Source of the DNA: Orobanche coerulescens
Lineage: Eukaryota; Streptophyta; Magnoliopsida; Lamiales; Orobanchaceae
Direction: 5' to 3'
Length of the DNA stretch: 64,000 nt
NCBI GenBank assembly: GCA_033398695.1
Contig: CM065816.1
Span: 135,629,358-135,693,357 of the forward strand
Positions 1 to 53,076 of the stretch are shown piece after piece. Every line of letters starts with the position of its first letter. The stretch's first letter is position 1. The notes beneath the pieces were generated by a model. The model ran no database searches. It had not been told where the DNA came from and saw only the letters and a program-made list of their open reading frames with translations. The position numbers were made by a program, and so were the translations under genes.

Positions 1-687
1 CCTCTAGGGATACGTATTGCCGTGAGTGTGCGTATCGCGAACTGTGGTTAGCCACCCAAGGATGTCCGACGGGGCTCTGCGGGGTACGATGGCCGTGAGT
101 CTCGTACCAACGGTTAACTTTGAATTGTGATTTGTTGGAGATAACGTGTTTTGTGATTGTACATCATAAATATTCCGGAATATAAAATGTTTTCTAAAAT
201 GACTTTTTGGCGCATGTATTCATCTGATTAGAATGTAGTTCAAATGGATTGTACTTGCACTAGCAGTTGTCGCTAACCCCTTAAATGGGGGAAATACTTT
301 TTGTATTTCAGGTATCGATCGTGGGGACAAACGAGCACTTGAGCCGTATGAGGATGATGGGCAAGCGTGATACTGATCAGTAGTCATTTGTTGGTGTTCA
401 GTTCAGTTTATTATTTTTCATGTCTGGTTTTGGGACTTTTGTATTATAAAATTGGTTTAAGTACTCGAGTACTTCTTATTTCAAAATTGTTAATGTTGTG
501 TTCCCGTTTGGGGAATTGGATTGATGTTGGATTCTAATTGTCGAGTTGTAGTCTTTTAATTGGATTGTCGTTTTATTGATGATTGTTTGTCGTTGTTGAA
601 TGTCTTGTTGGTACGTTATCCTGGTGGATTCCACAGTGTGGGGTCCACGGCGCTGTAATATGCCCTGAATGTCTTGGGGGTGTTACG
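1..687 (+). repeat. 5' LTR of element A (3' portion only)
   Basis: Near-identical to 6994-7680. It ends TGTTACG where the 3' LTR ends TGTTACA, and the primer binding site follows six bases later. Confidence 0.93.
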
Positions 688-692
688 GAATA

Positions 693-704
693 TGGTATCG
701 GAGC
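693..704 (+). other. Primer binding site of element A (tRNA-iMet type)
   Basis: TGGTATCGGAGC lies just inside the LTR. It matches the initiator-Met tRNA 3' end (TGGTATCAGAGC) except for one A-to-G change; element B keeps the exact sequence. Confidence 0.85.
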
Positions 705-908
705 CAGGTTTATGGATACCTAGGCTGTCGGTTATTTGGGTCTAGTCGAGTGTCGTTTTTGGGACAGTATCACTGCTATGCCATTATCTCAGTACGCCGG
801 TGCTCGTAAGTTTTCCTAACTTGACTCGTTTCACGTTCTGTTCTATTCCTGTCTTAGTATCTTATTGTGTTTTGCATTTGAATTGTACTTACCCGTTGCT
901 TCTTCAGA

Positions 909-3900
909 ATTCCTGCTGGTAGAGGACGCGAACGCGGTCGCGGATGCGGTAGGGGACGTGGCGCAGCCGGTGTGGCGGCCATGTCCGATCACTTGGGAAC
1001 TGATTCGGCGATGCCTTCCTTGTCGAACAGTGTTCCCCCTAGTTCCGGAGGTCAGCAGGACCAGTCTGCTAGCTCCGGTAATGCACACGAGAATGTTGGA
1101 GTGGCCAACATTTTGCAACAAGTAGCGAACCAGATGACGCTACTGACTCAGGCCGTTCTAGTCGGCCAAGCTAATGCCAACCCGGTTCCGCCTACTGGAT
1201 CCGGCAGTGATAAGCTACTTCAGGATGTGATTCGTATGCGTCCTCCGTAGTTTGATGGTGCTTCCGACCCTTCTGGTTGGGAGAATTGGCTATTCGAGAT
1301 GGAGAAAGTATTTGAGGCTACTAATTGTTCTGAGGAGAGGAAAGTACCCATTGCTCAGTACTTCCTCGCCAAGGAGGCAGCAACGTGGTGGCAAGCGGTG
1401 AAACCGCGTGACCGGGTAGCTACGTGGGCAGAGTTTCGGGATCTGATGGAAGACGAATTCTGTCCATGGCCAGTGAAAGAGGGGAGGATCCGAGCCTTCT
1501 TTGAGGCTAAGCCCCAAGATGTCCCTATATCTCAAGCTATCAAAGACTACAATCAACAGTTGCATTATGTGAGAAACCAAGTCCGAGATGAGCTTGATAA
1601 GATCCGCCACTTTGATATGCGGATGAAACCGAGGGTGCACCACTACATGTATGGTCTGGGGTGCACGACTTTGAAAGATTATCAGAATAAAGCGATGGCT
1701 TACGAGATGTCGTTTTCTGCGACAGAGACGGCAACCGAAGGGAAGAAGCAGAAGACCTCCGGTCAGTTTTCGGGAGGCAAGTCAGGAGGGTATCCGAAGG
1801 CTCAGTCTGGTTCGCGAGTCTTCGGGAGCCAGTCGCCATCAGTTGGTCGAGGAAACGGTTCTAGGTCTGCTCCTACTGGTTCCGTTCGTGGTCCTACGTG
1901 CTTCAACTGTATTCGTCCGGGCCACATGATGAGTGAGTGTGATAGGCCTCCGATTCAGTGTCTTGCTTATGGTCGGATTGGTCATCGTGCTAAGTTTTGT
2001 ACGGATGCAGCTCGGGATCCAGTTACTCAGATATCAGCACCAGCCGCGGGAGAGCCGAGTGTGAATCAGGCACCGACAGTTCCTCAGCCGCAGCAGAGTT
2101 TTGGTAGAGGTCGAGGTCGTGGTCAGCCTTCTAGAGGGGTAGATTCTAGTGCGGGGTCTGTTCCGCCCCGAGTGTACGAGATAAGACGAGCAGGGGATCC
2201 TGACGCGACGGTGGCTACAGGTACCGCCCACATCCTTGATCATCCTGTTTCCGTATTGTTCGATTCTGGTGCTACGCATTCTTTTATATATATGGATTGT
2301 GTGCGTCGTCTGCATATTGATTGCTTGGTTGCGTGTGAACCATTTTTTGTTAAACTTCCTAGTGGGGATAGCATCGTGGGGGATCGTGAGGTTAGAGATT
2401 TTCCAGTGAGTATCGCGGGGAGGGTTTGGCCTTCTAATCTGATTGCGGTAGATATTAGAGATGAGGATTTGATTCTGGGTTAGGATTGGCTGGACCGTCA
2501 TGGGGCGATCATGAATTATAGAACGAGGACTGTTTCGATGTTAGCCTCTGATGGTACCGAGCATTCTTTTGTGGGGCGTAAGCGGAGTATCCAGAGATTA
2601 CTGATCAGCGCTTTGAGGGCGGTGAGACTTCTTCGGGGAGGTTGCACGGGCTATTGGTGTTACGCTTTGAGATCGGAAGAAGGGGGAGTCCAGCTCTCGT
2701 CTATTCCGGTAGTATGTGAGTATCCTGACGTTTTTCCAGACGAGTTGTCGGGTTTGCCGCCGGACCGAGAGGTTGAGTTTACCGTCGATTTAGAGCCGGG
2801 GCAAGCCCCGATTTCTAAGACGCCATACCGTATGGCGCCTGCCGAGATGCTTGAGTTGAAGAAACAGTTGGGAGAGTTGCTAGACATGGGGTATATTCGA
2901 CCGAGCGCTTCGTCTTGGGGCGCACCAGTCCTGTTTGTGAAGAAGAAGGATGGGTCACTTCGTTTATGTATCGACTACCGAGAGTTGAACAAAGTGACCA
3001 TCAAAAACAAGTATCCGCTCCCGAGGATTGATGACTTGTTTGATCAGTTGCAAGGGTCAACCGTGTTTTCGAAGATTGATTTGAGATCTGGGTATTACCA
3101 GCTCCGAGTGAAGGATACCGATATTCCGAAGACAGCCTTTCGGACGAGATACGGTCACTACGAGTTTGTGGTTATGCCTTTTGGGCTAACCAACGCCCCA
3201 GCTGTGTTCATGCAGCTTATGAACAAGGTCTTTATCGAGTACCTCGATAAGTGTGTAGTCGTTTTTATCGATGACATACTGATTTACTCGAGGAGCGAGG
3301 AGGAGCACGCCCGTCATTTGCATATCGTTTTAGATATTTTGAGAACTCAGCATCTTTTTGCGAAGTTCTCAAAGTGCGAGTTTTGGTTACGAGAGGTAAT
3401 GTTTCTCGGTCATGTGATCTCGGCCGAGGGTGTTTGTGTGGACCCACATAAGGCAGAGTCAGTGTTGGATTGGGCACCGCCCAAGAACGTGAAGGAGGTC
3501 CGCAGTTTTCTAGGATTAGCCGGGTATTACCGTAGATTCGTCGAGGGGTTCTCTAAACTGCCGACCGGCCACTCGATTATTACGAAGTCGAGAAGTTTGT
3601 GTGGACCAATGAGAGGCGTAATAGTTTTGAGGAATTGAAGAAGCGGTTGGCGACCGCTCCGCTTTCGCTTTACCGAGTGGTAATGATGGTTTCTCCGTTT
3701 ATAGTGATGCTTCGGGCCAAGGGCTCGGATGCGTACTTATGCAGCACGGGAGGACGATTGCCTATGCTTCCCGTCAGTTGAAACCGTATGAATTGAATTA
3801 CCCTACGCACGATCTTGAGTTGGCCGCAGTCGTATTTGCGTTGAAGATCTGGCGTCATTATTTGTATGGCTCGTCGTGTCATATTTTCACCGATCACAAG

Positions 3901-5601
3901 AGCCTGAAGTACATTTTCACCCAGAAAGAGCTTAATATGAGACAGAGGAGATGGCTGGAATTGATTAAGGATTACGATCTCGAGATCCTCTATCATCCAG
4001 GCAAGGCTAATGTCGTAGCAGATGCCTTGAGCCGGAAATCGGTATCGCTTCGGGCACTTGAGTTACTCACGGCCCAGTCGGGACTTCAGCGAGAGTTTAT
4101 GAGGTTGAGCATTGAGATTGTACTGCCAGAGAGTTCCGGGCAGTTGCGTACTCTTGAGATTTCTTCATCTCTGGTCGATGACATAAAATCGGGACAGCTG
4201 GAGGACCCGATGTTTATTCAGCTTCGAGAGAGTGTAGGGAAGGGGAAAGCCCCGGGATTTGTTATTCATGAGGACGGAGTGTTGAGATTCCGAGGTCGGT
4301 TGTGTGTTCCGAACGACTCGGAATTGAGACAGAGTATTATGCGAGAGGCTCATGCGTCACCTTACTCAGTCCATCCGGGCTCGAGTAAAATGTATAAGGA
4401 TTTAAGAAAAAAATTTTGGTGGAACGATATGAAGAAGGAGGTAGTTCGGTTTGTGGCTAAGTGTTTGACTTGTCAGCAAGTCAAGATTTAGCATCAGCGG
4501 CCAGCTGGGTTATTGAAACCACTTCCCATCCCGGAATGGAAGTGGGAGGATATCTCTATGGATTTTGTCACGGGTTTGCCGAGGACGAAGACTGGTATGA
4601 ATATGGTGTGGGTGATTGTAGACCGACTGACTAAGTCGGCACATTTTCTGGGCATCAAGGATACTTGGGGTCCAGAAAAGTTGGCTCGTATTTTTATCGC
4701 TCAGATAGTGAGGCTTCATGGTACACCGAGGACCATTATTTCAGACAGAGATGGCCGATTTGTATCGCATTTTTGGCAGGCGGTACATAAGGCATTGGGG
4801 ACACAGTTACGTTTGAGCACTTCGTTCCATCCCCAGACCGATGGGCAGTCCGAACGTACCATTCAGACGTTCGAGGACTTGTGGCGCGCGTGTGCGTTAG
4901 ATTGGAGTAGTAACTGGGAGGAGCATTTGGCCTTAATTGAGTTTACTTATAATAATAGCTGGCACGCGTCGATTAAGATGGCACCGTATGAGGCACTTTA
5001 TGGCCGACGTTGCCGATCACCGGTATGTTGGGATGAGCCGTCCGATTTGGTTGGCACCGAGCCGGACCTTGTGTTGGAGACGAGAGAGAAAGTTGAATTG
5101 ATTAGGAAGAGAATGTTGGCTGCCCAGAGTCGACAAAAGTCTTATGCGGATGTTAGGCGTAGACCTTTAGAGTTTGAGGTGGGAGATCATGTTCTGTTGA
5201 GAGTGTCTCCGACGAAAGGAGTTTTACGCTTTGGGAAGAAGGGGAAACTCAGCCCGAGATATATTGGACCTTTCGAGGTATTAGAGAGAGTCGGTGAGTT
5301 GGCATACCGTTTGGCTTTACCTCCGTCGCTGAGTCATGTGCATAGCGTATTTCACGTTTCCCAGTTGAGGAAGTACGTTCCGGACCCGTCCCACATTATT
5401 GACTTTGGGGACGTGGAGATTGAGAAGGATGTTACGTTTGAAGAGAGGCCCGTCAGAATTTTGGAGCGTCGTGACAAGCAGTTAAGGCACAAAACCATTC
5501 CTTTGGTTAAGGTGCAATGGTCGAGGCATGGAGTAAAAGAAGCGACGTGGGAGTTAGAGGAGGATATGCGTTCAAGGCATCCCGAACTTTTTGATTCTTA
5601 A
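909..5601 (+). pseudogene. gag-pol polyprotein of element A (broken)
   Basis: Gag, protease, RT, RNase H and integrase can be followed in order. Visible motifs are the gag knuckle CFNCIRPGHMMSEC, the protease LFDSGATHS, the [12 protein letters not shown] and FIDDILIYS, and the integrase HPQTDGQSER, with a chromodomain-like end (KVQWSRHGVKEATWELEEDM). Breaks: the gag start seen in copy B is ATT here (909); TAG at 1248, where B has CAG; TAG at 2481, where B has GAG; a scrambled stretch with a frameshift between about 3560 and 3740; TAG at 4489. The second gag knuckle reads CLAYGRIGHRAKFC, so one zinc-ligand Cys has become Tyr. The element cannot make a full polyprotein. Confidence 0.93.
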
Positions 5602-5624
5602 GTTTCGGGACGAAACTTTATTTT

Positions 5625-5636
5625 AGAGGGGGAGAA
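5625..5636 (+). other. Polypurine tract of element A
   Basis: AGAGGGGGAGAA directly precedes the TGTAATATCC start of the 3' LTR, the expected plus-strand priming site. The same tract precedes the 3' LTR of element B. Confidence 0.88.
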
Positions 5637-7680
5637 TGTAATATCCGTAATTTTCCATTTTTAGCAGTTTCCATTTTTGGTGTATGTCTATTTTTATCGA
5701 CTCGCTTGTAACCGTTTCGACATTTTGAATCTACTTTGTTCTTGGAGTTTTTCCATTTGGATGAGTTTTAATGATGTTTTCACGAAATTTCGTTTTATGG
5801 CATGTTTTGCCGTATGAACGTTCAATTCTTGTAAAACTCGTTCGTTTTCGTTGTTTCTTGGTTTGTACAAGTTCGTATGATTGAGTTGGTCGTGTTGAGA
5901 CTTTCAGTTTGTAAATCCGACGTCGTTTCGTGATTTTCGGTCATTTGGGCCATTTTTGTAATTTCCTAATAGTTTAGGGAATCTTATTTTCGTTTTCGCA
6001 TTACGGACCCTCCGGTGGTCGGAATTGTATTTTTTTTCAGCGCTTAGCTCCGTCGTCTTGTATGCTTCGCGCCTATATTCCTGGATTCTGGTCTCGTCGT
6101 GCATTTCGTGTTTTATACCCTCGGCTGACTTCACTGCGATGTGACATCGATCTTTGAATCTACATGTAGGTAGCGCACGCTACCCCTGTTACCTTGCGTG
6201 CGCTACCGATGAGCAGTTAGGATACGCTAACTCCCTATTGTTAGCGTACGCTAGCGAATGGTGGCAGTAGCCACTGTACCTATCACGGCCCCGTTAGCGC
6301 GCGCTACACATGACGGTTAGCGTGCGCTAACTCCACTGAATATATAAGTCAGCGGACAGTTTCAGAACAGCAGTTTATTTCTTTTCTCTTCGTTTCTTCG
6401 ACGTGCGACCTCAGAGGCGATTTCCACCGGTTCTATTCGGAGTTCTCTTCAAATTCCATCACGGTAGAATCGAGCCATCATATTATCATCAGCATAATCA
6501 TCATCCATCGTCCGAATTCAAGGTATTTTCGTCTAGAACCCTAACTCGTCAGATTTGGGGGGTTTTACGGGTTTTGCTAATTGGACTCGAATTATTCCAG
6601 TATGTTGTGATATTCCTCATTGATTATTGTTATTGGGTGATTCCCAATCCGTTTTCTCTATTTTAATCCGCGAATTGTTGATACGGGGAGATTTTACGTA
6701 AACCCTCGCCCGTATCGATTGAACGTTTTTGTCGTATCATGTAATCGGGGTTATGGGTGTATTCCGATCGGTTATTATTGTCCGTTGGGACTGAACTATG
6801 TTGATCCTTCGTTTAGGAGAACGATGCTTTCCACCCGGGCCGTTCGTAGTTGTGTTTCACTTCCGTTTCTTCAAGAATGTCTCAAAGGCAAGTACTTTAC
6901 ATTTGTTTACATGTTCTAGTATTTGAATTATGGCTGTATCGTGGTTGTTGTGGATGGTTATGTGTATGTTCACCTAGGGACGGTCCGAGGGGGCCTCTAG
7001 GGATACGTATTGTCGTGAGTGTGCGTATCGCGAACTGTGGTTAGCCACCCAGGGATGTCCGACGGGGCTCTGCGGGGTACGGTGGTCGTGAGTCTCGTAC
7101 CAACGGTTAACTTTGAATTGTGATTTGTTGGAGATAACATGTTTTGTGATTGTACATCATAAATATTCCGGAATATAAAATGTTTTCTAAAATGACTTTT
7201 TAGCGCATGTATTCATCTGATTAGAATGTAGTTCAAATGGATTGTACTTGCACTAGCAGTTGTCGCTAACCCCTTAAATGGGGGAAATACTTTTTGTATT
7301 TCAGGTATCGATCGTGGGGACAAACGAGCACTTGAGCCGTATGAGGATGATGGGCAAGCGTGATACTGATCAGTAGTCATTTGTTGGTGTTCAGTTCAGT
7401 CTATTACTTTTCATGTCTGGTTTTGGGACTTTTGTATTATAAAATTAGTTTAAGTACTCGAGTACTTCTTATTTCAAAATTGTTAATGTTGTGTTCCTGT
7501 TTGGGGAATTGGATTGATGTTGGATTCTAATTGTCGAGTTGTAGTCTTTTAATTGGATTGTCGTTTTATTGATGATTGTTTGTCGTTGTTGAATGTCTTG
7601 TTGGTACGTTAGCCTGGTGGATTCCACAGTGTGGGGTCCACGGCGCTGTAATATGCCCTGAATGTCTTGAGGGTGTTACA
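5637..7680 (+). repeat. 3' LTR of element A
   Basis: Starts TGTAATATCC and ends GGTGTTACA, 2044 bp, with short inverted ends TGTAA/TTACA. U3 holds the palindrome cluster and TATA box listed separately. Family members in the window are the two LTRs of element B and a reversed solo LTR (23899-34327). Confidence 0.93.
6171..6348 (+). promoter_or_regulatory. LTR promoter: palindrome cluster plus TATA box
   Basis: At least five copies or near-copies of a palindrome of the form TTAGCGTGCGCTAA lie here: TAGCGCACGCTA (6171), a half-degenerate copy near 6194, GTTAGCGTACGCTAGC (6240), GTTAGCGCGCGCTAC (6291) and GTTAGCGTGCGCTAAC (6315). A TATA box, TATATAAG (6341-6348), follows the last copy by about 10 bases. 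The position in U3 directly before TATA suggests enhancer elements; the binding factor is not known. Confidence 0.75.
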
Positions 7681-7682
7681 CT

Positions 7683-9941
7683 TTTGCTTACCGACGAATG
7701 CCATTTGGTCTGTGTAATGCACCTGCTACTTTTCAGCGGTGTATGATGAGCATTTTCTCTGACATGGTTGAGCGGTTTTTGGAAATTTTTATGGATGATT
7801 TTTCTGTATTCGGGTCTATCTTTGATGAATGTTTACACCACTTAACCCAAGTGTTGGTTAGGTGTAAGGAGAAGAATCTTGTCCTAAATTGGGAAAAATG
7901 TCATTTTATGGTTAAAAAAGGAATTGTCTTAAGACATGTGATTTATGAAAAAGGAATTTGGGTGGACAAATCTAAAGTTGATTTAATATCCAGTCTTCCA
8001 CCCCCACGAACGATTAAAGAAATTCGGTCATTCTTAGGCCATGCTGGTTTTTACCGTCGATTCATCAAAGATTTTAGCAAAATTTCAAGGCCATTATGTA
8101 ACTTACTTTCAAAAGACACACCTTTCGTATTTGATGATCATTGTCTAAAAGCTTTTAAGACACTCAAATCTATGTTGAGCTCTGCACCTATCATCAAATC
8201 TCCGAACTGGAATCTTCCTTTTGAAATAATGTGTGATGCATCCGACTATGCCGTCGGTGTAGTATTGGGTCAAAGAGAAAATAAATTGCCAACTGTAATA
8301 TATTATGCAAGTAGAACTCTAAATGATGCCCAATTAAATTATTCTACAACTGAAAAAGAATTGATTGCAGTCGTTTTTGCCTTAGACAAATTTCGACCTT
8401 ACTTGATTGGTTCGAAAGTCTCCGATCATGCTGCATTAAAATATCTTCTTTCTAAGAAAGATGCTAAACCTCGCTTGATCCGTTGGATTCTATTGTTACA
8501 AGAGTTTGACTTAGAAATTCGAGATAAAAAAGGTGCTGAAAATGTTGTTGCTGATCATTTGTCTAGGCTAATCGTGAATTTTACTGATAAAGAACCTCCC
8601 ATTAATGAAACTTTCTCTGGTGAACAACTCATGTCTGTTTCTCAAATACCTTGGTATGCCGACATTGTCAATTACCTTGTTACTGGTAACATGACATCTC
8701 ATTGGAATAACCAAGATAAAACAAAAATTTTAAACGAAGTAAAAAAATTCTTTTGGGATGATCCATATTTGTTCAAATATTGTCCTGATCAAATCATTAG
8801 ATAATGTGTGCCAGAACATGAACAACAAAATATCATTTCCTTTTGTCATGATCATGCCTGTGGAGGTCATTTTAGTTCAAAGAAAACGACTGCTAAAATT
8901 CTGCAATGTGGTTTTTATTGGCCAACATTTTTCAAAGATACACATTCATATTGCAGCACAAGTGATAGATGTCAAAGATTAGGTCGAATTTCTAAACGAA
9001 ATATGATGCCTTTAAACCCAATTTTAATTATTGAAATATTTGATGTTTGGGGCATAGATTTTATGAGACCTTTTCCAATTTCTTTTGGCAATCTTTACAT
9101 CCTTGTGGGCGTCGATTATGTTTCAAAATGGGTAGAAGCAATTGCTTGCAAAACAAATGACCACAAAGTCGTGGTAAAATTTTTAAAAGAAAATATTTTT
9201 TCCAGATTTGGAACACCACGAGCAATTATAAGTGATGGAGGTAAACATTTTTGTAATAAATTTTTGAATCATTTATTTAAAAAATATGGTGTTACACATA
9301 AAGTTGCTACTCCTTATCACCCTCAAACAAGTGGACAAGTTGAAATTTCAAACAGAGAAATCAAACATATTCTTGAAAAAACTGTTAATTCTACAAGGAA
9401 AGATTGGTCTTTGCGATTGAATGATGCATTGTGGGCTTACCGTACTGCTTTTAAAACTCCCATCGGAATGTCTCCATTTAGGCTTGTCTTTGGAAAACTA
9501 TGTCATTTGCCTGTTGAATTGGAACATAGAGCATACTGGGCCATAAAACGATTAAATTTTTCATTAGACATGGCTGGAATTCATAGGAAACTTCAACTAA
9601 ATGAATTGGAAGAAATCAGAAATGATGCTTACGATTGTGCAAGGAAATATAAGGACAAAATGAAATTTTTTCATGATAAACACATTTTGAGAAAAACTTT
9701 TTCTCCTGGTCAAAAAGTCCTTTTTAACTCTCGTTTGTTATTATTTCCAGGCAAGTTGCGTTCACGATGGTCTGGTCCATTTATTATTCATACGGTCTAT
9801 CCTCACGGAGCTGTAGAAATTGAAAATCCAAAAAATGGTAATATTTTCAAAGTAAATGGTCAACGGTTAAAACCATATTTGGAATTGAAATCTTTTGAGG
9901 TAGAAGAGATTCTTCTTAAGGACCCCGATATTGTGAATTAA
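7683..9941 (+). pseudogene. Athila-type pol, 3' part: RT (partial), RNase H, integrase
   Basis: The frame opens at the RT segment [17 protein letters not shown], runs through the RT active site FMDDF, then RNase H (DASDYAVG), then an integrase with an HHCC-like zinc region near 8850-8980 and the D,D,E core residues in [17 protein letters not shown] and HPQTSGQVE. It ends in the conserved tail [15 protein letters not shown]. One TAA stop (8802-8804) splits an otherwise open frame between RNase H and integrase. The zinc region reads CSTSDRC where one more Cys is usual. With only one stop visible, the copy is young or recently active, but its N-terminal half is cut off by element A. Confidence 0.9.
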
Positions 9942-10060: not shown

Positions 10061-10606
10061 ATGGAACAAACTTTGAAAACAATTGAAAAAAGATTTCCCT
10101 TTCTTAGTAAAAAGGTCATTTTGAAACTTTACCAAACCAGACTTGAAAGGATGAGGTTGCTTATGAATAACGGCATACCTTTTGATATTCGATTCATTAT
10201 TGAAGCCAAAGTGAGAATAGCGGGTGAATTCACGGAAACACCAACTAGATTTTTACCAGAGCTTGGAAAAAGTTCATATGCCAAGAAACGGCGAGCAAAG
10301 AAAATCACCGTTTGCTACAAATGTGCTAGGTGGAACTGTGATTCAAGATGTCGATCTTTAAGAATTCCTTCCACAAATAAAGAAGATAAAATTCAGTTCA
10401 TCAAGGATGGTCTGAATAAGGAGAATTTAGATGATATCGAAATTTCTCTTGACACGCATCCTAGTGGACTCGTACATTACGGGATTCGATGTTTGTGGAA
10501 TAAATTCAAACGTAATATGAACAAATGCCTTGGGAATCTGACGTTAAAAGACCCTGTTTGCCAATTTGTAAGAAAACTGGATGGGAAGCTTCTCCCCGAC
10601 TCATAG
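10061..10606 (+). CDS. 181-aa cysteine-rich basic protein, resembling plant-virus nucleic-acid-binding proteins
   Basis: An intact ORF starting 120 bases after the pol stop of the Athila-like element. Residues 75-81 form a basic patch (KKRRAKK), followed at once by a Cys cluster, Cys85-x2-Cys88-x4-Cys93-x3-Cys97, and then the segment IQFIKDGL (111-118). A basic patch followed by a zinc-finger-like Cys cluster and a short hydrophobic/charged block is the layout of the small nucleic-acid-binding proteins of carlaviruses and vitiviruses, several of which suppress RNA silencing. That link is my inference from motif order. The first 65 residues are alpha-rich with no signal peptide or membrane segment, arguing against an env protein. 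Function is unproven; it could be a lineage-specific retroelement protein. Confidence 0.6.
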   Translation: MEQTLKTIEKRFPFLSKKVILKLYQTRLERMRLLMNNGIPFDIRFIIEAKVRIAGEFTETPTRFLPELGKSSYAKKRRAKKITVCYKCARWNCDSRCRSLRIPSTNKEDKIQFIKDGLNKENLDDIEISLDTHPSGLVHYGIRCLWNKFKRNMNKCLGNLTLKDPVCQFVRKLDGKLLPDS

Positions 10607-10720
10607 AAGGCGTTTAAGCCGTTTCTGAACGTAAAATCAGAGGAAGATGTGAGCCACAATCACAACTACTGTACATACATCTGAGTATCTTTACTTTTTG
10701 TCATTTTTTTAGATTTTCTG

Positions 10721-10745
10721 AATAAAAAATGTGATACGCAATAAA
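10721..10745 (+). terminator. Two poly(A) signal candidates after the cysteine-rich ORF
   Basis: AATAAA at 10721-10726 and 10740-10745, 115-140 bases after the stop codon at 10606 and before the next TATA box. This suggests the cysteine-rich ORF ends its own transcript here. Confidence 0.5.
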
Positions 10746-10826
10746 TGCATTCATTATTCTATTGAGTAGTTGAAGCGCAATTAACGCGGTCACAGATTTG
10801 ATAAATCTTTTTACTTTATTTTGCAT

Positions 10827-10835
10827 CTATAAATA
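10827..10835 (+). promoter_or_regulatory. TATA box for the LOG-like gene
   Basis: CTATAAATA lies 82 bases before the ATG at 10917, with a pyrimidine-rich leader between. The spacing fits a plant core promoter with a start site near 10860. Confidence 0.6.
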
Positions 10836-10916
10836 AACATTGCAGTTGTTTCTTTTCTGCATCCCTCAAACTTGTATTCTTTTCATTTTCTCTCTAAGTA
10901 ATTTTCTTTTCCAAAA

Positions 10917-11573
10917 ATGGAATCATCATCTTCCACAAAAAGATTTAACTCCATCTGCATTTTTGGTGGAGCTAGTCATGGGAAAGAGGCTTGCTTTACT
11001 GAAGCAGCCCACAACTTGGGTCGTACCTTAGGAGAAAAATGCATTCATGTAGTTTACGGAGGAGGAAGTCTAGGATTAATGGGACGTGCTGCTGCTTCTG
11101 CCTATATGGAAGGAGTAAAAGTGTTGGGAATCATTCCAAAACCTCTGGCTGGAAGTAAAATCACCGGAGCAACCATTGGAGATGAGTTCAGAGTTGTAAA
11201 TATGCAAGACCGCGTAACTCACATGATAAATAATGCCGATGCCTTTATCACCCTTCCCGGTGGTTTTGGCACTCTTGAGGAATTTTTTCATGTGCTTACC
11301 AGAGCCCAGCCAAATGTTTATACGAAACCAATAGGTCTGCTAAATGTCAATGGTTTCTTCGATGGTTTACTATCTTTCATCAACTACTCTTCTGAAAAAG
11401 GTTTTATTTCTGAGCATGCTAAACGAATCATAGTTGTTGCAACAACACCAGAAGAGGTGATCAAAAAACTTATTGCATTTGTTCCTGAACCAGACCCAGC
11501 TCTAGCTAATATTGTTTGGATGGAAGATTTCATTGTGCGGAAACGCAAAATTGATACATTCCTTTCCCTCTGA
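10917..11573 (+). CDS. LOG-like cytokinin riboside 5'-monophosphate phosphoribohydrolase, intronless, inside a retrotransposon
   Basis: A 218-aa protein, full length for the LOG family (about 200-230 aa). It carries YGGGSLGLMG (47-56), the signature PGGFGTLEE (114-122) with the catalytic Glu at 122, and Arg99 at the place of the catalytic Arg in the usual MHxRK segment; here that reads NMQDRV, so the following Lys is Val. Known LOG enzymes release free-base cytokinin from the riboside monophosphate in the cytosol or nucleus. The start is in good context (AAAAATGG). There is no intron, whereas the classical plant LOG genes I know of have several, so a retrocopy is plausible; however, a divergent plant subfamily with this GGFGTLEE form exists and its intron content should be checked. 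The frame is undamaged, next to a pol with one stop. Confidence 0.88.
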   Translation: MESSSSTKRFNSICIFGGASHGKEACFTEAAHNLGRTLGEKCIHVVYGGGSLGLMGRAAASAYMEGVKVLGIIPKPLAGSKITGATIGDEFRVVNMQDRVTHMINNADAFITLPGGFGTLEEFFHVLTRAQPNVYTKPIGLLNVNGFFDGLLSFINYSSEKGFISEHAKRIIVVATTPEEVIKKLIAFVPEPDPALANIVWMEDFIVRKRKIDTFLSL

Positions 11574-13310
11574 TATCCCACTTCATTCCTCTTGTTGTTT
11601 TTACTTTTTAGCAGGTGTAAAAATCGTGAAAATGATGGCAGCTTAAGGAGTTTCTTTTCGACCTCTTGACGTGCATCTATCCACGATTTATATATTGTTA
11701 TTTCTATTACTGCACTTTTTTTCGTTTGTTTTTAATAAAAGCATTGATGGCAGCGTAAGGCGACTCTTCGGACTCTCTTGAAGCGCATCTAGGTTGTTTG
11801 TGTTATACTTCCGGGTATATATTTTCTTTTGTTGTTTTGCCACACTTATTTCTTGCAGGTCCAAAAAAAAGGCTTGAGCGAAGCGTCGTCTTTCATAAAT
11901 AGTGAAGCCTTATTTAAACCCTAACTCCATTTTTCTTTTTACACAATAAGGATATTGTTTATCATTAAGTGTGGGGGAAGGTGTATATCTATATCTATAT
12001 ATATATATATATATGAAATATTAAAAAAAAAAAAGAGGTTGAAAATCACGGCACCATTTTCTTGAGAAAACGTTAGTGAAAAAATCATTTTTGGGATGTT
12101 TCACTGGTTTTGATAATGGATTGGATGAAGGTGTATGGGATTTAGCACACAACACCCTTTTTGTGAGTTTTGAGCCTTAGAGCAATCCTTATATATATGT
12201 TCTATATTTTTTGTTGTGTGGTCAAACATATTGTGTTCATTCTAAAACTTGCTCATTTATACATTTCGAGACTACATTCATAAACTCTTGCATTAAGATG
12301 ATAAAGGCAATTAGGATTAACCCCTTGTTGGCTTATATTTTTCCCACCCATTACATTTTATCCTTAGAAGCCCCATTGAGCCTGAGCCTATTTCTTTGAT
12401 CAAGCACATTACTTTAGCCATTATCCATTCTTGTTGATGACTCATCCATTTGCACCCTCTAGTCAAAGATTTAATTGTGAACTAGATGTGTGACAAATAG
12501 GGACCGATGTTCATAAGAGTATTGTGGAGATTAAGAGCTTTTGTTGAAAGTGAAAGGGTGTGAAGTACGTTGGAGTATTGAACCGAATAAAAAAATATAA
12601 AAAGGCCAAAAAAAAACGACCTGAAAGAAAAAAAGAAAAAGCGGGAGGTCAAGTGCGAAAATCATCACTATATATATACATAAAATAGCACTTGAACTAT
12701 CCCTTGAGTAATACATAATTCCTTCCAGAAGATCCATTGCATACTTTTTCTTACACAAGAGTATGACCTTACCAGATAAATATTCAATTACCATGTACAG
12801 AATAACTTGAGGATGATGGTTTGAGAGTTTTCATTAGAGAAGGGGGGGTGTGGATTGTTATTTGTAGGATTTGTTATGCATCTAAATTCACAATTGATCT
12901 TGGCTAGCAAACCTCATAATTTTCCCTTTATCCTACCCATACCCAAAGCCACGTTACAACCAAAAGAAAGACCTTTTGATTTATGCATGAGTTTATTTTT
13001 AAGTAGTGGAGATTTGATTTTTGACCAAGCATATGATAATGACACATTATGCTTTGATATGAGTGAACTCTTCTCGAATATACCATATATACACTTGAGT
13101 GAAGAGTGATATCCACCGTGAGGGTATTGAATCTTTTGGCATTCGATTCTCAATGAAGTTGTTAGAATTTGGTGCGGCATCCTATTTTTCTCTGATCTCA
13201 CTTGGGTCATGATCACTTGTTCTCTCTTGATATTGGTTTTGTCATGATTTTTTCAGCATATGAGTATTATAACTCGGGTATAAGATTTGCCCGAGGACGT
13301 GCAAAAGATA
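11574..13310 (+). other. Non-coding region of element E between LOG and the 3' LTR
   Basis: No supported gene. It holds a TA dinucleotide run (about 11985-12014), an A/G-rich stretch (about 12600-12650) and an extra polypurine-like tract, AAGTGTGGGGGAAGG, at about 11965, which resembles the true tract at 13311. Long non-coding spacers before the 3' LTR are common in Athila elements. Confidence 0.6.
11734..11739 (+). terminator. Poly(A) signal of the LOG-like gene
   Basis: AATAAA lies 161 bases after the LOG stop codon, in a T-rich stretch. A short direct repeat (GATGGCAGC-TAAGG form) flanks it at about 11634 and 11746. Confidence 0.55.
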
Positions 13311-13324
13311 AGTGTGGGGGAATT
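13311..13324 (+). other. Polypurine tract of element E
   Basis: AGTGTGGGGGAATT directly before the TGTTTAG start of the LTR; G-rich tracts of this form are usual for Athila/Tat elements. Confidence 0.7.
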
Positions 13325-14860
13325 TGTTTAGTATATTTTGAGTAATATTTTTATTAGTATTTTATATATATAATTATGTGTTGTGTGATAATTTATTCGT
13401 TTTACCATATATTTATATTATTTCATTTTGTTAGAATTTTCTATAATTTTATGTCATTTTTGGATAATTAATTGGAATAAAATTATATCTGCAGGTTAAC
13501 CAACCGGTACAAGACAGATCAATTGGTTCAAGGGCGATATTTTTACAAAATTCAAATATAGTCACGACTAGTCTCATTTTATTCGTCTCGTCGAGACGAT
13601 CGTTTTAAAAAAAATTCATCCGAATCTGAGTTCGTATGAAGAAGTTATGACCGTTCGAAGGACAATTAAATAGACGGACCATATTGTGCCATGTGTCAAC
13701 ACCCGATTGGACCGGAAATTCAACTCTCTGCTAATGTCATCCATGACATCAGCATTAATGGGCAGCAGTGTATTATTGGGGGTGGGATTTTAAAATGTTA
13801 AAAATTATTATTTTATTAATTTTGTAGTAGTATAAATTTGGAAGGGATTCAGTGCGATGCTGACACCATCTTTGTCTTGCACACCCACCGTCGGATCACA
13901 CACATCCGCACGGGTGTGTGTGTGCGCGTGTGTGATCCGACGGCGGATCTGGTGCACAGCATGGTGCTGTAATGCACCAGATCCGAACCCAGTATAAATA
14001 GGGGATGAATGTGTAGTGTTTTGAGAAATAAAAATATTATGTAATAAAATTATATTTGAGTAATAATATTATGGAATATTTATTTATTTGTGTTGTTATT
14101 ATGAGTGAGTAATTTTCTTTTACTGGGGTTATGATGAAATCATGTCTATATTATTATTAATATTTATATAATAATTCCAAATAAATATTTTTAACGATTA
14201 TGATTTTCGCTTCAATAGGGGAATATTATTTCATCAATTATATCACGTATTTTTGATAGTTATAAATTCCCCATTGCTTTGTGATTATTGATATTAGTTA
14301 ATTTCTTTGATTATTTGTTTTCCATTAAATTGGATACATATAATGCTTAGAAATTACATTTTTCAAGCATTATATGGAAATAGTGAGATTATAATTTTGT
14401 TTTCCATTAAATTAGATACATATAATGCTTAGAAATTACATTTTTCTAAGCATTATATGGAAGGAAAATCTATATTTGAATTATAATTTTGTACTTATTG
14501 TCAAATATATAGGGAAATAGTGAGATTGATTTCAGAATCTATTCCCTGAATTTCTTGGAATTAAAATATAAAATAAATAATAAATAGACATTGGTGGATT
14601 CTAAACCCTAGTAAATTATTTAAAATCAATTTGTCTAAAATCTACTTAAAAATTACTGTTATTTAATGCAATTATTATAACCATTCAAAAATAAAATTAT
14701 TTAGGACTAGGTTAGAATTTAATATAATTTGGTTCAAAACGATAGGAATAATTTGACTTCACTATTATAGTCCTCCCTGTGGAATCGACCTTGCACCGCA
14801 TATCTACATCGAAAAAATCGTGCGCTTGCGAGTATTAGACTAAAGAATCAACCAACAACA
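13325..14860 (+). repeat. 3' LTR of Athila-like element E
   Basis: Starts TGTTTAGTAT just after the polypurine tract. Near its end it has CTCCCTGTGGAATCGACC, a segment typical of Athila/Tat LTR ends, and finishes near AACCAACA. The exact 3' border is uncertain by a few bases, because the 5' LTR is outside the window. A TATA box lies at 13993-14000 (TATAAATA). It also contains a near-duplicate of about 60 bp around the AAGCATTATATGGAA segments (about 14330-14465). Confidence 0.7.
13888..14000 (+). promoter_or_regulatory. Two hairpins followed by TATA box in the Athila LTR
   Basis: The first inverted repeat has perfect 16-bp arms (13888-13903 and 13928-13943, beginning CCGTCGGATC). The second has perfect 12-bp arms (13945-13956 and 13973-13984, GGATCTGGTGCA and its complement) plus an inner 4-bp stem. 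TATAAATA follows at 13993-14000, 8 bases after the second hairpin. Confidence 0.75.
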
Positions 14861-14985
14861 GTTGTCGTTGTAGTAGAGAACCTAAGTTGCTTAGGTTGTT
14901 AAGAAACTAGGCAGGGCTTGGTGTATGGATTTTGTTGTTTCGGTGTTTTTTAATGACTACTTTAGTTAATAAAATCAGATATTTA

Positions 14986-18470: not shown

Positions 18471-19737
18471 TATTGGGAATCGGCACCCCACTTAGAATGG
18501 TGGATAAAATAGCGGAGTAGAGTTTTCAAACTCTTTTGCGTTTGCGGAAGCGTATTTAAATTGCGGAAGATAAACGGCACAAGATTTATATAGTTTCGGC
18601 CAAACGTGCCTACGTCCTCTCTCTGTATCTTTTTCTATAGGCTCAAGATCAACCTCTACACCTCATCTTCTATCGGTCCGAGGGATACCATTACAATCTC
18701 GTCTTCTATCGTTCCGAGATAAACCATACACTCTTATCTTTATGTCGGTCCAAGATAAACCGTTTTCCTTTTCTATCGGACAAGGAAGCAACCTATCTAG
18801 CTTTCTATTGGTACTAGACAAACCTCTCTTAGATTTAGATATGATTCTAATAATGCCGGATCAACGATCCTAATAACACTGAATCAATCTACAATCCGTA
18901 TCTTTCCTCTCGTGTATATGTTTTCGTGTATGGACACTCAAACACTTATCAATTAAGAATAAATATAACAACGATAGTGTATACAATGATATCAAACGTA
19001 TGTATGATTTTCTCAGAGTTGTTGTCTTGAATGATACCAAATGGTTTGGTATTTATAGGCAAATTCTCTCAAATAGCCGTTACTGGCTGTCTTCATTAGC
19101 GTGCTCTATTGCCTTTGTTTGGCATGCGCTAACCCGTCTTATGTACGTTAACATTGCATGGTTACGTACGTTAACTGTTCTTTTCTTCAGTCCAGTAGCT
19201 TCTGCCTTTTTCGTTAGCGTGCGCTAATATTAACGTGTAGTGTGCGCTAGCTGGTCTTCGTTTACAACGGTCTGGTGCTAAAAGTCTTCTGTCCAACGGA
19301 CATATTTCAAACTTAGCGTGCGCTAAGTTATTGTCATAGTGTGCGCTATCTATTCAAACTTCACTTTTCAGATTCCGCGTGATCTCCGTGTTGAAAGTCT
19401 TCACAATGGATATATTCCTTCGTTAGTGTGCAGTAGCTTCTTTTCCTAGCGTGCGCTAACTCAGTCATTTAGCATGTGTTATTCACTTCATGTAGCGTGC
19501 GTTAAACCATCAAGTGGCACTTCAGGTGAGTCTTCAGGTGATATGTACGTTAATCCTATAGACATCGCGTACGTTAGCTTCGATAATATGAATTTCTTTG
19601 TTTTTCAGTCCGGTTCGAGCGTCTTCGACTTCTTTGTTGTTTTGGTTCGTTCTATTGTTGTTTTCTTTGATCAACAACACATCAATAACTCATCATCAAA
19701 ACCATTTTATAATTATGTGGAATAGAATATTCCAACA
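18471..19737 (-). repeat. 3' LTR of element D (element runs on the minus strand)
   Basis: Begins TATTGGGAATCGG (the TG terminus mutated to TA) and ends ATTCCAACA on the + strand. It contains a palindrome zone at 19080-19580 and, on the minus strand, the TATA box CCTATAAATACC (19048-19059). Confidence 0.88.
19080..19580 (-). promoter_or_regulatory. Palindrome cluster in the left LTR of element D
   Basis: Multiple copies of TTAGCGTGCGCTAA and variants, plus GTACGTTAAC-type copies. Read on the minus strand they precede the TATA box at 19048-19059. Confidence 0.7.
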
Positions 19738-20234: not shown

Positions 20235-21761
20235 GGATCCAACTGAGAGTTGGTTTTTTATTTGATACATAGACGATATTTGGTATTGTGGTTCTTTTAG
20301 GAATCCAAACCTTTTTAATTTTGATAGTCCGTCTTGGGCTTTTGCAAATCGAAACATGATGCTCAATTTTCAAACATTTATCATCGGGGTATTTTAAAAT
20401 TTAAGGATTCGATTTTATTACATGGTTTGAATCCTAACCCCTATTTGTTAAAAGAGAATTTTTGAACGGAAAACAATTGCTCAAATTTTTTATTTCCGCA
20501 AGAAAATTTATTTGTTAACTCCTTAAGTTCATTTTGAACTTTTAAAAGATCATCTTTCAATTTATTCTCCTTAACAAGGCACATAGAATGATCATTTTCA
20601 AAAACTTCCCCCTTTTCTTTTATTTTGGAAATTTCGATTTCCAATACTTTATTTTTCACTTTTAGGAATTTATTATCAATTAAAGCATTTTGAAAAATGG
20701 TATGTAAAAGTTCGAATGCTTCAAATAATTCATCGTGAGACGAGGTACTAACCTGGCTCGACGTCGCTTTCGTCGAATGAACTCCTTGCCATGAGTGCGA
20801 GGTTATTTTAAATATATTCATCATTATCCTCTTCGTCACTCAACGTAGCTATTAATACTTCTTTCTTGGAAGTCGAGCCTCGAAAATTTCTAGCAAAGTG
20901 GCCTGGTTTACCACAGTTTCGATAATTATTGTTGAATTTCTTTGACTCGCTCGAGTTGATGTCTTTTCTTCGCCGGTTTAATAAGTTTTGGTACTTATTT
21001 ATATTTTTGGCATAATATGCCAATTCTTCATCATCTTCGTCCGCCGGGATGTCTTTGTTTCTTGACATCTTAGCTTTCAGAGCTATAGATCTTTCCTTCG
21101 GTTTCGACTTAGCGTTTTGAGATTTAAGAACTATCTCGTAGTTTATTAGTGAACCAACGAGCGCACTAAAATCAAGATTATTTAAATCTTTCGATTCCAT
21201 AATCGTCGTAACCGTCCCGTCCCATTTAACAGGTAGTGATCGTAGGATTTTCTTTACTTTTTCACTACTTGTTAATGGTTTCCCAAAACAAGCTAGTCCA
21301 TTAGTAATGACCGAAAGTCGGTCGAGCATGTTTGTTATGGACTCGTCACTTTTCATCATAAATAGCTCGTAGTCGTGGAGGTGCATATTTATTTTCGTCT
21401 CCTTGACTTGAGATGTTCCTTCATGAGTTGCCTCAAGCATTTTTCAAATCTCTTTGGCACTGTCACATGATGATATCCGGTTGTGTTCTTTCGGATTTAG
21501 AGCACAATATAATAATTGCATCGCCTTGCAATTATAATGGTCGTTTTTCCAATCCGTATCATCATACTCTTCAAAGCTTTTGAGAGTGCCGTTTGAATTC
21601 ATCGAAATTTTCGAACCAAGACATATGACTTTCCATAGCTCGATATCATAGGCTCAGATGAATATCGACACTTTCTTCTTCCATGTCATAAAATTCGATC
21701 CATCAAAAAATAGAAGTCGGTTTAAGGCAAGACCTTCGACCAGTGCAAATTGGAGCGCCAT
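20235..21761 (-). pseudogene. gag of element D (broken)
   Basis: Starts MALQFALVEGLALNR at 21761 and aligns through its length with the gag of element F (UBN2/copia-type gag: TWKKK, WKNDH, ETKINM-LHDYELFMM, KKILRSLP). Stops fall in the first third (SIFI*AYD and KEI*KML) and the frame shifts near 20830. The zinc knuckle reads YRNCGKPGHFARNF, so both the first and last Cys of the CCHC box are lost. The C-terminal part is Lys/Glu-rich and coiled-coil-like. A pyrimidine-rich + strand stretch (about 19840-20070) lies between it and the 3' LTR. Confidence 0.82.
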
Positions 21762-21814: not shown

Positions 21815-23083
21815 TGTTGGGAATTGGCACCCCACTTATAATGGTGAATAGAATCACAGAGTAGAGTTTTCAAACTCTTTTGGGTTTGCGGAAGCGTATT
21901 TAAATTGCAGAAGATAAACGACACGAGATTTATAGAGGTCCGGCCAAACGTGCCTACGTCTTCTCTCCGTATCTTTTTCTATAGGCTCAAGATCAACCTA
22001 TACACCTTGTCTTCTATCGGTCCGAGGAATACCGTTACAATATCGTCTTCTATCGGTCCGAGATAAACCGTTACACTCTTGTCTTTATGTCGGTCCAAGA
22101 TAAACCGTTTTCCTTTTCTATCAGACAAGGAAACAACCTATCTAGCTTTCTATTGGTACTAGACCAACATATCTTGGGTTTAAATATGATTCTAATAATA
22201 CCGGATCAATGATCCTAATAACACCGAGTCAATCTACAATTTGTATCTTTTCTCTCGTGTATATGTTTTCGTGTATGAACACTCAAACACTTATCAATGA
22301 AGCACAAATACAACAACGATATTGTATATAATGATATCAAACGTATGTATGATTTTCTCAGAGTTGTTGTCTTGAATGATATCAAATGGTTTGGTATTTA
22401 TAGGCAAATTCTCTCAACTAGCCGTTAATGGCTGTCTTCATTAGCGTGCATTATTGCCTTTGTTTAGCGTGCGCTAACCCATCTTACGTATGTTAATATT
22501 GCATTGTTACGTATGTTAACTGTTCTTTTCTTCAGTCCAGTAGCTTCTGTCTCTTCCGTTAGCGTGCGCTGATATTAACGGGTAGCGTGCGCTAGCTGGT
22601 CTTCGTTTACAACAGTCTGATGCTAAAAGTCTTATAGCGTGCGCTAAGTTATTGTCATAGCATGCGCTATCTGTTCAAACTTCATTTTTCAATTCAAACT
22701 TCACTTTTCAAATTCCACGTGATCTCTGTGTTGAAAGTCTTCACAACAAATATATTCCTTCGTTAGTGTGCGTTAGCTTCTTTTCCTAGCGTGCGCTAAC
22801 TCAGTCATTTAGCATGCATTATTCACTTCATGTAGCGTGTGTTAAACCATCAAGTGACACTTCAGGTGAGTCTTCAGGTGATATGCATTACGTACGTTAA
22901 TCCTATATACATAGCGTATGTTAGCTTCAATAATATGAACTTCTTTGCTTTTTAGCCTGGTTCGAGTGTCTTTGACTTCTTTGTTGTTTTGGTTCATTCT
23001 ATTGTTGTTTTATTTGATCAACAACACATCAATAACTCATCATCAAAACCATTTATAATTATGTGGAATAGAATATTCCAACA
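21815..23083 (-). repeat. 5' LTR of element D
   Basis: TGTTGGGAATTGG...ATTCCAACA, 1269 bp on the + strand. Minus-strand TATA box CCTATAAATACC at 22393-22404, preceded by the palindrome cluster at 22440-22925. Confidence 0.9.
22440..22925 (-). promoter_or_regulatory. Palindrome cluster upstream of TATA in the 5' LTR of element D
   Basis: Copies include TTAGCGTGCGCTAA at about 22468, 22560 and 22786 and several one-base variants (e.g. GTAGCGTGCGCTAG, CATAGCATGCGCTA), with a few GTACGTTAA forms. Confidence 0.72.
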
Positions 23084-45589: not shown

Positions 45590-47622
45590 TGTAATATCCG
45601 TAACTTTCCATTTTTAGCAGTTTCCATTTTTGGTATATGTCTATTTTTATCGACTTGCTTGTAACCGTTTTGACATTGTGAATTTACTTTATTCTTGGAG
45701 TTTTTCCATTTGGATGAGTTTTGGTGATGTTTTCACGTAATTTCATTTTATGACATGTTTTGCCGTATGAACGTTCGATTCTCGTAAAACTCGTTCGTTT
45801 TCATTGTTTCTTGGTTTGTGCAAGTTCGTATGGTTGAGTTGGTCGTGTTGAGACTTTCGTTTTGTAAATTCGACGTCGTTTCGTGATTTTCGGGCACTTG
45901 GGCCATTTTTGTAATTTCCTATAAGTTTAGGGAATCTCATTTTCGTTGTCGCATTACGGACCCTCCGGTGGTCGGAATTATATTTTCTTTCAGCGCTTAC
46001 CTCTGTTGCCTTGTTTACTTCGTGTTTATGTTTCTGGATTCTGGCCTTATCATGCGTTTTGAGTTTCGTACCTTCGGCAGCAGCATTCTGGTCTGGGCAG
46101 TGCTGAACTGCTGTGTTGGTAGCGCACGCTACTCCTTTTCCCTTGCGTGCGCTATCGATGTGCAGTTAGCGTACGCTAACACGTTACTGTTAGCGTGCGC
46201 TAACGAGTGGTATTTAGCCACTGGACTGTTATAAGCCCCGTTAGCGCGCGCTACTTGTGTTAGTTAGCGTGCGCTAACTATGCAGTTTAAATAGATTAGC
46301 GGCAGTTCAGAAACAGCATTTTTCACTCTTTTCTTTCGTTTTCTTCACGGGGCGACTCCAGAGGGCAATTACCTTTAGTTCTGATCGGAGAATTCTTCGT
46401 ATTCCATCACCGTAGAATCGTGTTAGCATATTACCATCAGCGTAATCATCCTCCATCGTCCGAATCAGAGGTATTTTCGTCTAGAACCCTAAATTGTCAA
46501 TTTTGGGGGGTTTTCCGGGACTAGCTTATTAGACTCGAATTATTCTAGTATGTTGTGATATTCCTCATCGATTGTTGTTATTGGATGATTCCCAATCCGT
46601 TTTCCTCGAATTAATCCGTGAATTATTGATACGGGGAGATTTTGCGTAAACCCTCGTCCGTATCGATTGATCGTTCGTTATCGTAGTTTGTAATCGGGGT
46701 TATGGGTGTATTCCAATCTATTATTGTTGTCTGTTGGGACGGAACTACGTTGATTCTTTGTTTAGGAACCGTCGTTTTCCACCCGGACCGTTCGTAGTCG
46801 TGTTTCATTCCCGATTCTTCAAGAATGTCTCAAAGGCAAGTACTTTACATTTGTTTACATGGTCTAGTATTTGAATTGTGGCTATTCGTGGTTGTTGTGG
46901 ATGGATATGTGTATGTTCACCTAGGGACGGTCCGACGGGGCCTCTAGGGATACATATTGCCGTGTGTGTGCGTATCACGAACTATGGTTAACCACCCAGG
47001 GATGTCCGACGGGGCTCTATGGGGTACAGTGGCCGTGAGTCTCGTACCAAGGTTAACTTTGAATTTTTTTGTTGGAGAAAATGTGTTTTGTGCTTGTGCA
47101 CCGTATAATATTCCGGAATATAAATGATTTCTAAAATGATTTTGGCGCATATATTCATCTGATTAGAATGTAGTTCAAATAGATTGTACTTGCACTAGCA
47201 GTTGTCTCTAACCCCTTAAATGGGGGAAATACTTTTGTATTTCAGGTACCGGTCTTGGGGACAAGCGAGCATTCGGGCCGTACGAGGATGATGGGCAAGC
47301 ATGATACTGTTCAGTGGTCAATTGTTGGTGTTTTGTTCCGTTAGTTGTTATTGATGTCTTGTTTTGGGATTTTTGTATTATAAAATTGGTTTAAGTACTC
47401 GAGTACTTCCTTTTTAAAATTGTTAATGTTGTGTTCCCGTTTTGGGAAATGGATTTGATGTCGGATTTTATTTGTCATATTGTAGTCTTTTATTTGAATT
47501 GTCGTTTTGTTAATGATTGTATGTCGTTGTCGAATGTCATTTTGGTACGTTAGCCTGGTGGATACCACAGTGTGCGGGTCCACGGCGCTGTAATATGCCC
47601 TGATCGTCTTGGGGGTGTTACA
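45590..47622 (+). repeat. 5' LTR of element B
   Basis: TGTAATATCCG...GGTGTTACA. Palindromes (46120-46280: e.g. GTTAGCGTACGCTAAC, GTTAGCGTGCGCTAAC, GTTAGCGCGCGCTAC) precede the TATA-like TTTAAATAG (46286-46294). Confidence 0.93.
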
Positions 47623-47627
47623 AAATA

Positions 47628-47639
47628 TGGTATCAGAGC
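47628..47639 (+). other. Primer binding site of element B
   Basis: TGGTATCAGAGC, exact match to the initiator-Met tRNA 3' end, six bases inside the LTR. Confidence 0.9.
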
Positions 47640-47837
47640 TTTAGGTTTATGGATACCTAGGCTGTCGGTTATTTGGGTCTAGTTGAGTGTTGTTTTTGAA
47701 CAGTATCATTGCTACGCCATCATCTCAGTACGCCGGTGCTCGTAAGTTTTTCCTAACTTGACTAGTTTCACCGTTCTGTTCTATTCCTGTCTTAGTATCT
47801 TGTTGCGTTTTGCGTTTGAATTGTACTTACCTGTTAC

Positions 47838-48358: not shown

Positions 48359-48375
48359 CCTGTTACTTCTTCAGA

Positions 48376-53041: not shown

Positions 53042-53076
53042 GTTTCGGGATGAAACTTTATTTTAGAGGGGGAGAA

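Follow-up and report, generated by a model that had tools for sequence, protein, structure and literature searches.

A LOG-family gene as probable selected cargo of an Athila-like retrotransposon in Orobanche coerulescens

The 64,000-nucleotide stretch of the Orobanche coerulescens genome analysed here, referred to as the window (GCA_033398695.1, contig CM065816.1, positions 135,629,358 to 135,693,357), contains an open reading frame (ORF) of the LOG family within an Athila-like long terminal repeat (LTR) retrotransposon. Does this gene belong to the element or to the host, is it maintained, and what might its product do? The initial annotation had described an intact, intronless frame of 218 amino acids with the signature PGGFGTLEE and Arg99. 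This description was confirmed by the open frame, by matches to the Pfam families PF03641 (E 4e-36) and PF18306 (E 2e-11), and by the match to its best solved relative, 2A33 (Arabidopsis At2g37210, AtLOG3; E 3e-52); the signature occupies residues 114–122. The placement between integrase and 3' LTR was also correct. LOG starts 975 bp after the pol stop and ends about 1.73 kb before the polypurine tract (PPT), in agreement with the earlier figures of 975 bp and 1.7 kb, and a matching 5' LTR with the target site duplication (TSD) lies upstream. As to extra coding content, LOG had been noticed and the adjoining ORF at 10061–10606, here called NABP, had been overlooked.

In the 3.65-Gb assembly (G000), the LOG query returned 14,291 first-look candidates. 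The best 150 were scored, all with 90–100% identity over nearly the full length; 119 of these were free of stops by hand count, a share which, given the ranking by protein similarity, does not equal the fraction of all copies. The element motif M-Q-D-R-[I/V/M]-x-H-M occurred, as an exact pattern, at 5,022 places genome-wide, and the reversed pattern at none. The closest database proteins were from Orobanche. Twenty loci of ten kb were chosen from the LOG matches before reading, one on C561 and the others on C1–C19 except C16, with C1 represented twice; found via LOG, they were unable to reveal LOG-less copies. In all 20, LOG was present between the stretch that precedes it in the window and the noncoding DNA that follows. 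NABP was at least partially present in 19 (missing in L018, pieces only in L020 and L016), integrase at least partially in 17, and 12 loci had an LTR of matching orientation. A search with the noncoding DNA 3' of LOG gave 2,011 candidates, of which 40 were scored, 39 of them besides the window itself. At the best 20 (one already sampled copy was skipped), at least 85% of LOG was present beside 18. At locus L014 (C8:13250900-13260899), two NABP-LOG copies point away from each other, their integrase ends separated by about 0.25 kb.

The window by itself could not exclude a host LOG gene with an element landed alongside, nor a one-off capture in the window copy. The former, which the initial annotation had set against its own view, was excluded by the presence of LOG at the same place in other copies, with the same element flanks at 20/20 loci on 18 large contigs of C1–C19 and one small contig. 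The 5,022 motif places also speak against this explanation, as does the structure of a host gene. The canonical LOG motif M-H-x-R-K-A-E-M occurred at 17 genome places as a DNA pattern, with none for the reversed pattern. In the one of these that was read (L067), introns separate the motif from the PGGYGTLEE stretch, that stretch from the following block, and this in turn from the end, in contrast to the intronless window gene; the pocket was canonical and the C-terminus unlike that of the element LOG. Searches for host LOG with whole AtLOG3 or a 45-aa AtLOG3 peptide were swamped by element copies, and the peptide missed the host gene because an intron of L067 falls within the peptide region. 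The host-neighbour and one-off explanations are therefore left with practically no probability. LOG is almost certainly resident cargo of the Athila-like lineage and under selection, and the earlier claim that the element carries and keeps it held at the loci described above and in the selection analysis.

Selection was measured at two levels. Among the 20 copies picked by their noncoding DNA, LOG was without stops or frameshifts in four and broken or incomplete in 16. Their mean pairwise within-family ratio of nonsynonymous to synonymous substitution rates (dN/dS) was 0.67, compared with 0.41 for integrase (12 copies) and 0.36 for NABP (15 copies); the three values are not strictly comparable, as the LOG copies were not chosen for an intact LOG and the integrase and NABP loci were chosen via LOG. 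Change during replication was isolated by subtracting within-family from between-family differences, expressed as the net ratio of nonsynonymous to synonymous differences (pN/pS). Between two subfamilies, the net pN/pS of LOG was 0.10 (bootstrap 0.04–0.20; 12 copies and the window, six frame-disturbed rows dropped) or 0.11 (0.05–0.24; all 18 copies and the window), and that of NABP was 0.28 (0.19–0.39). Against a third family (8 copies, 87–90% DNA identity), the values were 0.24 (0.14–0.39) and 0.29 (0.19–0.48). As judged from these ratios, purifying selection is acting on the replicating element lineage. Several points weigh against this conclusion: the high within-family ratio of LOG relative to integrase and NABP, the selection of subfamily-2 and third-family copies by rank of protein similarity, which somewhat lowers dN, and the loss of two of the 20 noncoding-picked copies for coverage, one of the two counts lacking a further six. 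The broken copies and the ratio of 0.67 would suit a functionless hitch-hiker whose decay is not yet complete. This is very improbable in view of net ratios of 0.10–0.29 with all upper bounds below 0.5, and of the open frames of 215–217 aa in Rehmannia and Paulownia, which share 59–64% identity with the element LOG and fall in the same clade.

The element product has the type-I LOG fold, as determined by Foldseek structure comparison. It shares the fold, PGGxGTxxE, Arg99 and Glu122 with the plant type-I proteins AtLOG3 (2A33) and AtLOG8 (1YDH), and differs from them in sequence (48% and 41% identity), in the intronless gene and in a replaced prenyl pocket. Excerpts of PMC4979012 name Met96, His97, Lys100, Glu125 and Trp129 as the prenyl-pocket residues of LOG and Arg99 and Glu122 as catalytic. 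Four of the five pocket residues are replaced in the element LOG (Q97, V100, H125 and R129 in the window, with V or I at position 100 among element copies), and Met96 is kept, as are the catalytic Arg99, Glu121, Glu122 and GGxGT. Position 100 was M or I in 23/23 non-Orobanche relatives, including those from Rehmannia and Paulownia. On account of its prenyl pocket, the element LOG was classed as a LOG-fold homologue and not as a cytokinin-activating enzyme, and the suggestion of the initial annotation that it may alter cytokinin was not supported as stated.

The best explanation overall, in which we have considerable confidence, is that of a selected cargo LOG with an altered pocket and a non-classical or additional substrate. 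LOG is copied with the element beside a carlavirus-type nucleic-acid-binding ORF and would be expressed either from a TATA promoter of its own or from the RNA of the element. Within the host cell the product would act as a nucleotide 5'-monophosphate N-glycosidase. Its substrate would be something different from, or additional to, the classical prenylated cytokinin nucleotides, and the element would benefit. The element LOG is probably enzymatically active; that its main substrate is not the classical cytokinin nucleotides is a proposition we favour only somewhat. If the enzyme is active, this is a case of a retrotransposon that has kept a nucleotide or hormone enzyme of the host for its own use. 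LOG gene counts in broomrape annotations will be dominated by element copies, and these should not be taken for cytokinin genes. Two observations weigh against the best explanation. His was found at position 99 in 10 of the 94 Orobanche proteins listed, so many genomic LOG copies are probably dead, and the retention of Arg99, Glu121, Glu122 and Met96 remains compatible with cytokinin release.

Continued release of free-base cytokinin, with the raised level holding cells in a dividing or meristematic state and thereby favouring new heritable insertions, is accordingly a serious, if distinctly less probable, alternative. It would be in keeping with the intact catalytic residues, the type-I fold, the long purifying selection and the resemblance of NABP to carlavirus cysteine-rich proteins (CRPs), one of which is linked to cell proliferation in the sections available of PMC8839810. 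It is opposed by the exchange of His97, Lys100, Glu125 and Trp129 for Q, V/I, H and R, by the M or I at position 100 in the non-Orobanche relatives, and by the near loss of CgLOG activity upon alanine substitution at residues of the adenosine monophosphate site, S19A excepted (PMC4979012, where the excerpts do not name the mutants individually).

A non-enzymatic role, in which the LOG fold binds nucleotides or proteins and a basic LxLxL tail is the working part, was also considered. This tail, which we take to be EAR-like, was present within the last 14 residues of 23/23 non-Orobanche relatives, and was not found in two Arabidopsis fragments, whose true ends are missing, nor in three Xanthoceras rows. 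The different end of the host LOG L067 and the altered pocket would also fit such a role. It is improbable nonetheless: LxLxL occurred in 0/95 rows of Orobanche and the window, where the usual ending is FLSL, the C-terminal tail is disordered in the structure model, and the catalytic Arg and Glu are kept.

As to its origin, in a tree of 38 rows the element LOG belonged to a 33-row clade (support 100/98) whose members include the Rehmannia and Paulownia sequences. AtLOG3, AtLOG8 and the three Xanthoceras rows were placed outside it; no Lamiales host LOG was among the rows. The Orobanche rows and the window formed one group (100/100) with the species mixed within, the Paulownia rows grouped together with some further rows and those of Rehmannia formed two groups. 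The element LOG may stem from the ancient uptake of a plant LOG transcript after splicing. Further LOG-like families (L065, L066) are present in the genome. The LOG-like frames of L066 (C15:69555326, 69561258 and 69567193) belong to another, degenerate family and are spaced about 5.9 kb apart, like a tandem array; pairs of LOG-like frames 5.4–5.8 kb apart were also seen on C1, C3 and C4.

The NABP ORF scored above the Pfam gathering thresholds for Viral_NABP (30.7 over 23 bits) and Carla_C4 (27.9 over 20.9 bits). Like carlavirus cysteine-rich, nucleic-acid-binding proteins (PF05515 and PF01623), it has a basic stretch followed by a CxxC zinc-binding motif; it differs from them in its length of 181 aa and in being borne by a retrotransposon. 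In the consulted part of PMC8839810, carlavirus CRPs are described as nucleic-acid binding, silencing-suppressing and symptom-determining. At E 0.001, NABP had 192 protein relatives, and the 120 listed included proteins of Orobanche, Populus, Xanthoceras, Acer and Rhamnella. Among viral contigs, 76 pattern matches to NABP were found and none was confirmed. A Melia protein fuses integrase with the NABP domain, and one gene model each of O. hederae and O. gracilis fuses the NABP domain to LOG. Two of 11 Orobanche NABP tags adjoin one of 92 LOG tags, a number reached by 14 of 20,000 random placements. NABP and LOG matches on contigs of equal size (2425, 1386 and 2128 bp; a coincidence at 905 bp is too short for both) weakly suggest that the pair is present in other plants. 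Paired one-base gaps relative to the window NABP were observed in 15 other copies, pointing to a short compensated frame change either in the window NABP or in the others. Separately, an O. gracilis gene model (P0112, OROGR_024430) combines a LOG domain with a Copia-type gag domain (PF14223).

It is conceivable, though unlikely as a whole, that NABP and LOG work together as a pair of genes with which a plant retrotransposon manipulates its host, a judgement that covers all of the following steps. NABP would supply a virus-type nucleic-acid-binding and possibly silencing-suppressing protein. The LOG-derived N-glycosidase, with its rebuilt base pocket, would degrade or clear away some nucleotide other than a cytokinin; immune signals of nucleotide type and damaged precursors for making cDNA are examples. 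The LOG half would travel between subfamilies as a cassette that brings its own promoter along.

The second subfamily (L028 and L033–L036) has a mosaic relationship to the window element. Similarity was about 68% in the aligned part of integrase, 77–79% in NABP, 89% in the stretch before LOG, 93–94% in LOG and 90–92% in the first 124 bases after it, with 50–76% before NABP and 48–65% beyond about 11820. In sliding windows across 10561–11700, the two subfamilies were 82–97% alike, mostly above 90%, with the minimum at about 10801–10980. L033–L036 were each 92–100% alike to L028 throughout, and two controls of the window family were 88–99% alike. On the simplest reading of these alignments, a block of about 1.1 kb was apparently swapped between the subfamilies. 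Selection on LOG contributes to the similarity of the block, yet its noncoding stretches are similar too. The sequence TATAAATA was found about 80 bp 5' of the LOG ATG in 24/24 loci tested, all picked via LOG; it is a possible LOG promoter, as AATAAA at 11734 is a possible terminator.

The initial annotation knew of no LOG-bearing LTR retrotransposon, and in this it was mistaken. A 2022 paper (PMC9289625, citing Steinbauerova et al. 2011) names, in the portion available, Ty3/Gypsy LTR consensuses with a YgdH (LOG) domain from Citrus sinensis, C. clementina and Populus trichocarpa (Populus without a filter). As in the window element, plant Ty3/Gypsy elements there have a LOG-family domain as additional coding content; the record concerns other plants and is one sentence without position, partner ORF, selection or pocket. 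These elements are possibly of the same lineage as the window element because NABP relatives occur in Populus, Xanthoceras, Acer and Melia. The same portion describes Phalaenopsis Gypsy elements with an AlkB-like 2-oxoglutarate-dependent dioxygenase (2-ODD), an m6A demethylase. There too a host-type enzyme gene was taken up by an LTR element; that enzyme differs from LOG and is an RNA demethylase, assayed in that study according to its abstract. Full-text literature searches found no other title on a LOG-bearing LTR element. By term search of the text accessible, PMC4381496, on Orobanche transposable elements, contained no LOG, cytokinin or extra-ORF term and mentioned Athila once, as a clade; the accessible text of Neumann 2019 (PMC6317226) gave no match. 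The present data turn a one-sentence record of a LOG domain into a testable case. They add a motif count of about 5,000 for one genome, measurable selection, a defined partner ORF, a cassette that is apparently movable and named pocket changes.

The features of the element and its surroundings are listed in Table 1. In the 9 kb inspected 5' of the window, the 5' LTR was found at C16:135621983-135623306 (L029:1626-2949). Both ends of the element have the TSD GTTGT, the LTRs are bounded by TG...CA, and a primer-binding site (PBS) of the TGGCGCC type and a PPT are present. LTRs, 5-bp TSD, PBS, PPT and the order reverse transcriptase (RT), RNase H, integrase were thus all found. These hallmarks are common to Ty3/gypsy elements generally. 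The name Athila is presumptive; it comes from the initial annotation and from features regarded as typical of that lineage. The LTR pair differed at 29 of 1310 positions (Kimura two-parameter distance, K2P, 0.0225), giving an insertion age of about 0.9–1.6 million years (My) at 1.3e-8 or 7e-9 substitutions per site per year. Three BLAST pieces were used for this estimate, and a full MAFFT alignment (67 differences/1325) was set aside as it contains a misaligned repeat. In the 5 kb upstream of three other copies, one partial 5' LTR was found (336 bp, 98%) and none for the other two. A second copy of the PPT core TGTGGGGGA lies at 11970, 0.4 kb 3' of LOG.

Table 1. Features of the LOG-bearing element and its nested insertion, in window positions
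Feature	Position	Strand	Remarks
Nested Tekay/Del-like element	1..7680	+	5' LTR remainder 1-686; 3' LTR 5637-7680
Athila-like pol, end of RT and RNase H	7698..8804	+	
In-frame stop in pol	8805-8807	+	
Integrase, zinc-binding H2C2 and rve	8808..9941	+	same frame as RT/RNase H; pol stop 9939-9941
NABP ORF, Viral_NABP/Carla_C4-like	10061..10606	+	181 aa; between integrase and LOG
Block of about 1.1 kb	10561..11700	+	approximate edges; NABP end, TATA region, LOG, first bases beyond
TATA box TATAAATA	10828..10835	+	about 80 bp 5' of LOG ATG
LOG-family ORF	10917..11573	+	218 aa, intronless
Noncoding region, LOG to 3' LTR	11574..13324	+	
AATAAA, candidate poly(A) signal	11734..11739	+	3' of LOG
PPT proper, TGTGGGGGA	13313		before 3' LTR
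3' LTR, TG...CA	13325..14860	+	TSD GTTGT at 14861-14865

The nested element, presumably of the Tekay lineage, interrupts the Athila-like element in its RT region, with the TSD CTTTT and its end at 7680. Its LTR pair (K2P 0.0194) corresponds to 0.75–1.4 My, not older than the target element, as required. A chromo domain match at 4513-5601 scored below the cutoff. No further LOG or Athila-like copies were found inside the 64-kb window. A second Tekay-like element was located at 45590-54757, and its LTR pieces are about 85–89% similar to the nested element's LTR. An ORF with DUF1985 (E 3.5e-14) was found at 57527-58399, where the match to a plant mobile domain was weak and below the cutoff. The direct repeats at 18473-19707 and 21817-23054, 3.34 kb apart and 91–93% alike, perhaps bound a short element as its LTRs, with a gag-like ORF on the minus strand (20808-21440).
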